The notes beneath the pieces were generated by a model. That model did not search any database, was not told the DNA's origin, and worked only from the letters and a program-made list of their open reading frames with translations. A stretch of 37,505 nt of DNA, from positions 3,466-40,970 of the forward strand of contig MGBA01000025.1 of the NCBI GenBank assembly GCA_001789965.1, given 5' to 3'. Of the stretch, positions 7,286 to 9,338 are shown piece by piece. Within the stretch, counting starts at the first letter, position 1. Every line of letters begins with the position of its first letter. The position numbers and the translations under genes are program-made. Source of the stretch: Candidatus Roizmanbacteria bacterium RIFCSPLOWO2_02_FULL_40_13 (GTDB taxonomy: Bacteria > Patescibacteriota > Microgenomatia > UBA1406 > GWC2-37-13).

Positions 7286-7996
7286 ATGTCAGCAGAGAGA
7301 TCCATTCTTACACGAGAACAAGTCAATCAAGCGGAAAGCAGGGTCGGCTTTAGCCACCCTGTTTTAACGACCATCGAACGCAACCTTCCTAGAATTCTTC
7401 ATCTAAACGAAGGATATGTCTTTGTAACCGACAGTTCAAACCAGCAACAATATATAAAGGGACATTACGGATTTTTAGCTGACGCGCTTGTTGAAGCTGG
7501 TCCATATCCACTTGAACCAATAGATCTTATAGCGATTTGGGCGCGCGTCATAGAAGTGTTTCCTAACAACTATTATAGATATGATCTTGCGGGAATGATA
7601 TCGAGCGCTTACGCAGTCATGGAGATCGAAGATCTGGAATGGAAAAAACTTCCTAGACATTATTTTGAGACGGGTCAGCTACCTGAGGCTGTTACGAAAG
7701 ACAGAAGTGGCTTAGTTGTTGTTCAAAGCCGATTACATCAAATTGGAGAAAACTTAGGCGATATAGACTTCTACACGGATGGTGTCAGTGACGGAATAAC
7801 CCACGCTTCTGACTTAGCAAAAAGGGAAAGAGATGGAGACGAAGAGGCGGCAAGGGAATTAGACGCGTTAATAGCTCACCAGAAAGCGCATAATACCCCA
7901 ACGTTATCAGAACTCCATGAAAATTTTGGAAACGGTTATATGCCTTTAAGTAGAGCTGTTGGAAAAGCGCTAAAAGCTTTTGGCAGGGAAGTTTAG
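7286..7996 (+). CDS. hypothetical protein, 236 aa
   Basis: I do not recognise this soluble protein. It has no signal peptide or membrane segment. It opens with a helical region (residues 1-45), has a Tyr/Trp/Pro-rich middle (about 70-125), and an acidic helical C-terminal part (KRERDGDEEAARELDALIAHQKAH, about 180-203). Its own -10 box lies six bases before the ATG, so it is transcribed separately from dnaN. The stop codon lies inside a 17-base direct repeat (7991-8007) that recurs after the next gene. Confidence 0.72.
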   Translation: MSAERSILTREQVNQAESRVGFSHPVLTTIERNLPRILHLNEGYVFVTDSSNQQQYIKGHYGFLADALVEAGPYPLEPIDLIAIWARVIEVFPNNYYRYDLAGMISSAYAVMEIEDLEWKKLPRHYFETGQLPEAVTKDRSGLVVVQSRLHQIGENLGDIDFYTDGVSDGITHASDLAKRERDGDEEAARELDALIAHQKAHNTPTLSELHENFGNGYMPLSRAVGKALKAFGREV

Positions 7997-8007
7997 AGTT
8001 CTTCGAG
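7991..8007. repeat. 17-base perfect direct repeat, copy 1
   Basis: GTTTAGAGTTCTTCGAG recurs exactly at 8470-8486. Copy 2 includes the last codons and stop of the Xer-like gene on the minus strand, and copy 1 contains the stop codon of the 236-residue gene. The two copies bracket the urea-transporter-like gene. Confidence 0.8.
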
Positions 8008-8050
8008 ACCTCCTCCGTTATTATCTCCGTTCGAATCCAAACGCAAACCG

Positions 8051-8056
8051 TATAAT
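8051..8056 (+). promoter_or_regulatory. -10 box TATAAT, six bases before the half-urea-transporter gene
   Basis: A perfect TATAAT, then six bases, then ATG at 8063. A weak TTCGAA lies 15 bases upstream. It belongs to the leaderless pattern. Confidence 0.6.
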
Positions 8057-8062
8057 AAAGAC

Positions 8063-8464
8063 ATGAGCCTTCTACATGCTACTCTCAACGGATTCAGTCA
8101 GGTTTTTCTTCAAGAGAATTTAATTTTTGGCGCATTGATTGCGATCGGACTGGCTGTTGCGTCACCTATCGCATTATTGTTTGCACTAATCGGACTGACA
8201 TCTTCGCTTCTTACAGCCCACACTCTTGGAGTAAAAGATGCAGTTATAAATAGCGGATTATATAGCTTTAACGGGATCCTAATAGGAATTGTTTCGTTTT
8301 TCTTTTTAAAACAAACACCAACAACTGTTATTGTGACAGTGGTTTTATCAGTGCTTGGCGCATTGCTTTTCTATGGTTTTTCCAAAAATAATATCCCAGC
8401 ATTCACTACGCCATTTGTAATAGCTGGTTGGGTTGCTTTAGTAGTCTCGAGATATTTTAAGTAA
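8063..8464 (+). CDS. single-repeat (half-size) urea-transporter-like membrane protein
   Basis: The 133-residue protein is almost entirely hydrophobic, with about five predicted membrane segments. It carries, in order, the landmarks of one repeat of the UT/Yut urea channel family: a QVFLQENLIFGALI start, SPIAL, the selectivity-region motif GLYSFNGILIG (about 66-76), and a C-terminal PAFTTPFVIAGW. Known family members are about 300 residues or more with two such repeats in opposite membrane orientation. Only one repeat is present here, with clean start and stop, and no second half is adjacent. Charged residues are very few (about five basic), as in dual-topology proteins, so a homodimer with opposite orientations could rebuild the channel. 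Urea or a similar small amide is the likely substrate by family. No urease gene is visible. Confidence 0.72.
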   Translation: MSLLHATLNGFSQVFLQENLIFGALIAIGLAVASPIALLFALIGLTSSLLTAHTLGVKDAVINSGLYSFNGILIGIVSFFFLKQTPTTVIVTVVLSVLGALLFYGFSKNNIPAFTTPFVIAGWVALVVSRYFK

Positions 8465-8469
8465 GAGTG

Positions 8470-8486
8470 GTTTAGAGTTCTTCGAG
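8470..8486. repeat. 17-base perfect direct repeat, copy 2
   Basis: Identical to 7991-8007. On the minus strand it encodes the terminal LEEL and stop codon of the Xer-like gene. Similarity to copy 1 continues imperfectly a few bases further into that gene. Confidence 0.8.
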
Positions 8487-9338
8487 GACTTCTTTTTTCT
8501 CCGGAGCCTCTTTTACCAGATTTAAGAATCTTTCGGTTGAGGAAAGTCTTCGGTGTCCTACCACTTTTGCGATGTGTTCAATTGAAAATCCACCCATTAG
8601 TTGGTGGGCAATAAATGTGTTTCTAAAATCATTTACTGTCGCGTTTTCAATCGCCACTTCACGGAAACAACGGGTAATAAGCTGTCTCACGTTTCTTATA
8701 AGAAGGGGTTTTCCGGTGCGGGTTATAAACAAAAAGTCATCGTCAGGCCCGCTATTTCCTCGGACCTTTAGATAATCTCCAACTGCTTTTTTAACCGCTT
8801 TGTTCAAAGGAACTTCACGGGGCGGATTTTTTCCATAAGGCCGGATATCAAGAGAGCCATCCTTTACATCGGTAAGTCTAAGATTGGTGAGCTCTCCAAT
8901 ACGAAGACCGGTCTGAAGAAGGATCTCAACGATAGCATAAGTTCTCAGATCTTCTTTCGCAACGTCACGGATCGCGCGGTATTCAAGCTTACTGAAAACT
9001 CGAGGAGGGGTTTGGGTATATTTTGGGTGGGCGACATCCAAAGAAGGGTTGGTTTCAAGGATGCCCTCTTGTTTTAAAAACCGGAAAAACGTTCTAATAG
9101 AATTCAGCTTCCGTGACGCAGACTTTTTCGTGTAATTGTCAGTAAGAAGCTTATTAATAAAGAGCTCGATATCGTTTTTTTTGACATCCCGGATGTCATT
9201 TATCTCGCGGGAAGACAAGAACCCGATAAATTGCTCTAGGTCTTTTTTATAAGCGATGATAGTAAAGTTTGATTTGCCTTGATTTCTCAAAGACTCAGTG
9301 AACTTTTCTATCAACGAGGGGAACGTATACCCATCCAT
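8472..9338 (-). CDS. XerC/XerD-like tyrosine recombinase family protein lacking the catalytic tyrosine
   Basis: The 288-residue protein has the SAM-like N-terminal DNA-binding domain (about 5-90) and the phage-integrase catalytic fold. Active-site positions follow XerD spacing: R146 in TGLRIGEL, K170 in the beta-hairpin GKNPPREVPL, R239 in NDFRN and H262 in VGHRRLSSTERF. Two key residues are changed: the His of the HxxR box is Asn (N236), and the nucleophilic Tyr, nine residues after the GH, is Phe (F271, codon TTC), with no Tyr nearby. Strand transfer through a phosphotyrosine should be impossible, so a DNA-binding or accessory role is more likely. The frame extends to 9470, but the family N-terminus and a TATTAT box 8 bases upstream support 9338. 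It diverges from rpsA. Confidence 0.88.
   Translation of the reverse strand: MDGYTFPSLIEKFTESLRNQGKSNFTIIAYKKDLEQFIGFLSSREINDIRDVKKNDIELFINKLLTDNYTKKSASRKLNSIRTFFRFLKQEGILETNPSLDVAHPKYTQTPPRVFSKLEYRAIRDVAKEDLRTYAIVEILLQTGLRIGELTNLRLTDVKDGSLDIRPYGKNPPREVPLNKAVKKAVGDYLKVRGNSGPDDDFLFITRTGKPLLIRNVRQLITRCFREVAIENATVNDFRNTFIAHQLMGGFSIEHIAKVVGHRRLSSTERFLNLVKEAPEKKEVLEEL

Follow-up and report, generated by a model that had tools for sequence, protein, structure and literature searches.

The window analysed here, a stretch of 37,505 nucleotides from Candidatus Roizmanbacteria bacterium RIFCSPLOWO2_02_FULL_40_13, carries at positions 8063-8464 of the plus strand a half-size channel gene of the urea transporter (UT) family. 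Its 133-residue product comprises a single UT repeat and is probably a working channel, in which oppositely inserted copies would pair as an antiparallel homodimer and so rebuild the pore. Profile, fold and pore motifs place the protein in the same family as UT/SLC14 (PF03253; dvUT, UT-A, UT-B), with which it has one complete repeat in common, i.e., a pore helix and five membrane helices. UT/SLC14 genes, however, encode two fused inverted repeats, the halves of which are oppositely charge-biased, whereas the gene in the window encodes one repeat with a bias near zero.

The open reading frame starts with ATG, is uninterrupted and matches the Pfam UT profile (PF03253) with an E-value of 1.5e-30 and 106.9 bits (curated cut-off 25), in a single stretch that covers only profile positions 2-133 of 292. 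An earlier note on this DNA had described a complete 133-residue gene with one UT repeat and few charged residues; both descriptions are borne out by the intact frame, the presence of all three motifs quoted there and a count of seven charged residues among 133 (GRAVY 1.22). Standard UTs carry two homologous repeats in tandem on the same chain, which this protein does not. Since the profile is half covered and the neighbouring gene adjoins directly, the protein was classed as a single-repeat variant and not as a standard UT. For the NCBIfam equivalog TIGR03441 (urea_trans_yut) it scores 81.2 bits over positions 2-136 of 292, below the cut-off of 274.6, as expected for a protein that represents half of the profile. 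A search of PDB sequences with the protein returned urea transporters only, matched in either half of their chains.

AlphaFold2, supplied with 43 sequences of single-repeat proteins, N-halves and C-halves, predicts a well-defined fold for the 133-residue protein (pLDDT 95.6, pTM 0.89). The model corresponds to one UT repeat, whereas a mismatch with this fold would, according to the earlier note, have spoken against its reading: all 133 of 133 residues align with solved UT N-halves at rmsd 1.9-2.0 and Z 13.6-20.4, the Z-scores to the N-half being 20.4 for human UT-A2, 19.8 for dvUT (3me1) and about 19.5 for UT-B. The model of a homologue (L011) has the identical helix order (pLDDT 92.8). Because the alignments included halves of fused UTs, the predicted UT fold is in part what homology would lead one to expect. 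The model also matches Rnf, Nqr and ammonium transporters, but these matches were set aside, as their Z-scores of 6-11 fall in the range for which the tool warns of helical bundles.

A survey of 373 genomes of the same class revealed two further single-repeat UTs, so that homologues of the kind suggested by the earlier note do exist in related genomes: L003 (135 residues; genome G270) and L004 (134 residues; genome G207), both from Candidatus Daviesbacteria in the Microgenomates group of NCBI. Each is the sole UT match in its genome, G270 being 93% and G207 99% complete. The three proteins share their end point at pairwise identities of 36-53%, and among codon positions the third differs most and the second least, as expected under selection on the protein. 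An assembly artefact as the source of the half-size gene is ruled out by its occurrence in three genomes and by its intact flanks. That the gene is a functionless, decaying truncated remnant of a full-size UT gene is very improbable: its distribution is sporadic (three of several hundred genomes of the class) and a 24-nt direct repeat that flanks it may be a rearrangement scar, but intact versions of 133-135 residues with conserved filter residues and endings persist at this divergence in three genomes, and codon position 2 has changed least. The short form therefore looks maintained, not decaying.

The direct repeat (24 nt, 17 exact) lies at 7991-8014 upstream and at 8470-8493 downstream of the UT gene and has no further copy in the window. 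The downstream copy encodes the last residues of a tyrosine recombinase, the gene of which occupies the opposite strand and ends 8 bases past the UT stop; the upstream copy, read on the minus strand, gives ...GLRLDSNGDNNGGGLEEL-stop, like a duplicated recombinase tail. Because the two copies thus correspond to the recombinase gene tail and a similar tail upstream, the sequence suggests an insertion or rearrangement at the recombinase 3' end. Other neighbours of the UT gene are, by sequence recognition, presumably dnaA and dnaN; an open reading frame of 236 residues (7286-7996) between dnaN and the UT gene matches no Pfam or NCBIfam profile convincingly. At the L003 and L004 loci, the neighbouring genes inspected are unlike those at the window locus, and none of them points to urea metabolism. 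A probable -10 box (TATAAT, 8051-8056, plus strand) lies six bases before the ATG of the window gene, with the same spacing as TATAAT at 1477-1482 of L004, and a consensus scan called no full promoter at the window UT gene. The short distance from TATAAT to ATG in two of the three homologues suggests a leaderless transcript. At L003, a leader frame of 10 codons (about 1459-1492) stands in place of TATAAT and overlaps the start as TGATG.

Elsewhere, UT genes of full size prevail. Two other genomes of the same phylum encode ordinary UTs of 280 and 291 residues, and some 90 other UT genes sampled from four phyla are of full size except one (L068, 1492-2313), in which a stop in the linker splits the UT into a 132-residue N-half and a 138-residue C-half with TTG start; this may be a UT made of two chains or the result of one nonsense mutation. 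In wider samples of about 300, 300 and 190 genomes, drawn from the phyla to which an Ignavibacteria, a Pseudomonas and a cyanobacterium belong, respectively, UT matches over the cut-off occupy open frames of at least 267 residues, L068 excepted. This sampling is partial, and single-repeat forms may therefore occur elsewhere. Many UTs in these samples belong to frames of about 690-770 residues; L018 (3944-6109) is a fusion of a full UT with a Peptidase_M23 domain, and L055 (2313-3938) one of a cyanobacterial (Xenococcaceae) UT with EF-hand calcium-binding motifs. A single-sequence scan of genome-contig and viral-contig collections returned no relatives; a search of the same collections with the three-sequence alignment returned the two Daviesbacteria loci and full-size or multi-domain UTs, and nothing viral. 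Plasmid and phage matches were dismissed as single-repeat candidates, as those inspected are long UTs, and so were four weak class and phylum matches (L002, L005, L008 and L009; E about 1e-4 to 1e-3, under the curated cut-off), of which L002 (80 residues) was inspected and judged not to be a UT. No published single-repeat UT was found in the mainly open-access literature searched.

The charge distribution bears on the orientation of the single repeat. When every lysine and arginine is assigned to one of the two membrane faces that follow from the course of the five membrane helices, the N-halves of 39 fused UTs have a mean K+R bias of +5.4, with values from 1 to 9 and a single half within 1 of zero. 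For the C-halves the mean is -3.1, with values from -7 to 0 and eight halves within 1 of zero. That the signs differ is in agreement with the known opposite orientations. For the three single-repeat proteins the bias is -1, 0 and +1, and these values are unchanged when helix boundaries are moved by up to 4 residues (200 draws). Lysines K83 and K108 and the residue K/R130 are kept in all three and are distributed across the two faces; among fused halves K83 is seldom seen, whereas K/R130 is C-half-like (64%).

Judged from sequence, a bias this close to zero suggests what is expected of dual-topology proteins. Five proposed proteins of this kind have biases of -2 to +1, whereas those of the partners in oriented heterodimers amount to 6 to 7 in size (PMC3962082), and Fluc singletons are charge-balanced, whereas twin Flucs are not (PMC3755343). 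Like the 133-residue protein, the Fluc/CrcB singleton is a small chain with balanced charges, and it works as an antiparallel pair (PMC3755343); however, Fluc/CrcB is unrelated to UT and has four helices per chain (PMC3962082, Table 1), and its antiparallel assembly has experimental support, whereas that of the 133-residue protein is predicted. The biases of EmrE/SMR, SugE, YdgC and YnfA likewise lie within -2 to +1 (PMC3962082, Table 1), as in the UT trio, although these families are unrelated to UT and mostly have four helices; unlike EmrE-type proteins, a UT repeat crosses the membrane an odd number of times, as the fusion of inverted repeats requires. On the other hand, with just 5-6 positive charges a near-zero bias may easily arise by chance once selection on bias lapses, and a simple loss of such selection would give the same picture as dual topology; the eight C-halves of fused UTs with values this close to zero likewise weaken the argument. 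The trio, being one clade, does not provide three independent tests.

For a dual-topology protein no oppositely biased paralogue is expected, and no such UT paralogue was found in the three genomes, the estimated completeness of which is 93-99%. In the entire Roizmanbacteria genome, which spans 925 kb on 25 contigs and is 94% complete, the UT gene is the sole UT match, and a second half does not lie downstream of it, since the recombinase gene adjoins its stop. The second half-gene that the earlier note wanted sought elsewhere was thus found neither here nor in G207 or G270. A two-gene heterodimer, with the second half encoded in the small part of the genome that the assembly lacks, is hardly probable: the genome is indeed 94% complete and a linker-split UT in two frames exists (L068), but G207 and G270, at 99% and 93%, also lack a second half, and an oriented half should retain its bias, as do the split halves of L068 with +7 (N) and -5 (C). 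Taken from sequence, the near-zero bias of the trio, the opposite biases of fused halves and the lack of a second half in three genomes favour the dual-topology idea put forward in the earlier note.

The origin of the short form was addressed with a tree of 81 half-length sequences. N-halves and C-halves split with support 100/98, and the single-repeat trio forms one clade (99/96) that groups with the N-halves of a mainly Pseudomonas-type set (97/88); this nesting among N-halves is kept when the long-branched fusion proteins are omitted (99/92). This placement, with bootstrap values of 97-99, suggests that the trio descends from a fused gene; the most likely course, judged from the sequences, is that a fused transporter first lost the C-half and later the charge bias. 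Trees in which the trio stands outside the N-halves are, however, not rejected by the AU test (p 0.39 and 0.146). In terms of N-versus-C residue scores, the window protein has +14 bits and the other two +55 to +64, at means of +127 for N-halves and -113 for C-halves.

Owing to the outside position allowed by the AU test and to the +14 bits of the window protein, which fall between the N and C means, the trio may be read as a surviving pre-duplication UT ancestral to both fused halves, which would alter the history and not the mechanism. We consider this unlikely, because two data sets nest the trio among N-halves (bootstrap 97-99) and because it occurs sporadically within one derived class, being absent elsewhere among the samples. 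The statement in the earlier note that the protein resembles the supposed ancestor therefore stands in part: the AU test leaves room for it, whereas the nesting with N-halves speaks against it. The fuller scenario, in which a fused-repeat channel reverted in the Microgenomates to a single-repeat dual-topology homodimer, with fusion reversed and charge bias erased, is put forward tentatively, as a reading somewhat short of an even chance. DUF606 is described as one family in which homodimers from a single gene, paired genes and two-domain fusions all occur (PMC3962082); it is unrelated to UT, in which the single form is rare and seemingly derived from the fused form.

Alignment with the N- and C-halves of UTs locates the pore in three segments of the 133-residue protein, all on the plus strand: the end of the pore helix with filter residues 12-19 (SQVFLQEN, with Q13, V14 and L16; 8096-8119), residues 65-75 (GLYSFNGILIG, with F69 and L73; 8255-8287) and residues 112-118 (PAFTTPF, with F114 and T115; 8396-8416). 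The UT filter set Q/E, V, F/L, F/Y, L and T is matched by Q13, V14, L16, F69, L73 and T115. The aligned positions in dvUT include Q24, V25 and F27. The filter threonine (T115) is replaced by alanine in both Daviesbacteria proteins, from which sequence change a difference in selectivity is possible. Among the filter residues of dvUT are L84, T130, L247 and T294 in the middle, E187, F190 and L293 outside and F80 and L129 inside; the UT pore arises where two halves of opposite orientation meet (PMC4357013). A lone copy should therefore not build a pore.

Insertion in one orientation, followed by pairing with a different, unrecognised partner or by assembly into a parallel oligomer without classical UT pore, is rather unlikely. 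Tree and residue scores put the trio on the N-half side and make an N-half-like orientation conceivable, but the N-half-type bias that would fix this orientation is lost, a second UT half is missing from three genomes, and the filter residues are for the most part conserved on the side by which UT halves meet each other. The preferred antiparallel homodimer could work in the following manner: Each chain, with its pore helix and five membrane-crossing helices, would insert into the membrane in both orientations, as is expected since the charges on the two faces balance. Two opposite copies would then pair to form a ten-helix pore, as fused UTs make from two halves. This pore would be truly two-fold symmetric, with Q13 at both filter ends; a Q/Q filter would be ordinary, because Q is the commonest residue at this position in N-halves (34 of 39) and C-halves (23 of 39) alike. 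Given that fused UTs form trimers (PMC10541013), the antiparallel dimers would probably assemble in threes. Urea or a similar small neutral solute would pass passively through the pore. Whereas the single repeat, its conservation in three genomes with no second half found, the one-repeat fold prediction and the neutral bias are observed, insertion in both orientations, antiparallel pairing, the assembly of dimers in threes and the passage of urea are inferred. Breakdown of urea by urease is not an obvious purpose, since no urease alpha subunit was found in the Roizmanbacteria genome, G207, G270 or either of the two genomes of the phylum that encode full-size UTs. The channel may serve to release or equilibrate urea, urea may be used via another route, or the substrate may be a different small amide.

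Fused inverted repeats of transporters are thought to descend from single-repeat dual-topology ancestors, and, to our knowledge, natural single-repeat members are rare in families otherwise seen only as fusions. A UT of 133 residues with neutral bias is thus a small system in which it could be tested whether one repeat inserts both ways, pairs and conducts. A perfectly symmetric pore would ease mutagenesis of the filter, as every change would be present at both ends. If the trio is derived, the fusion step can be undone.
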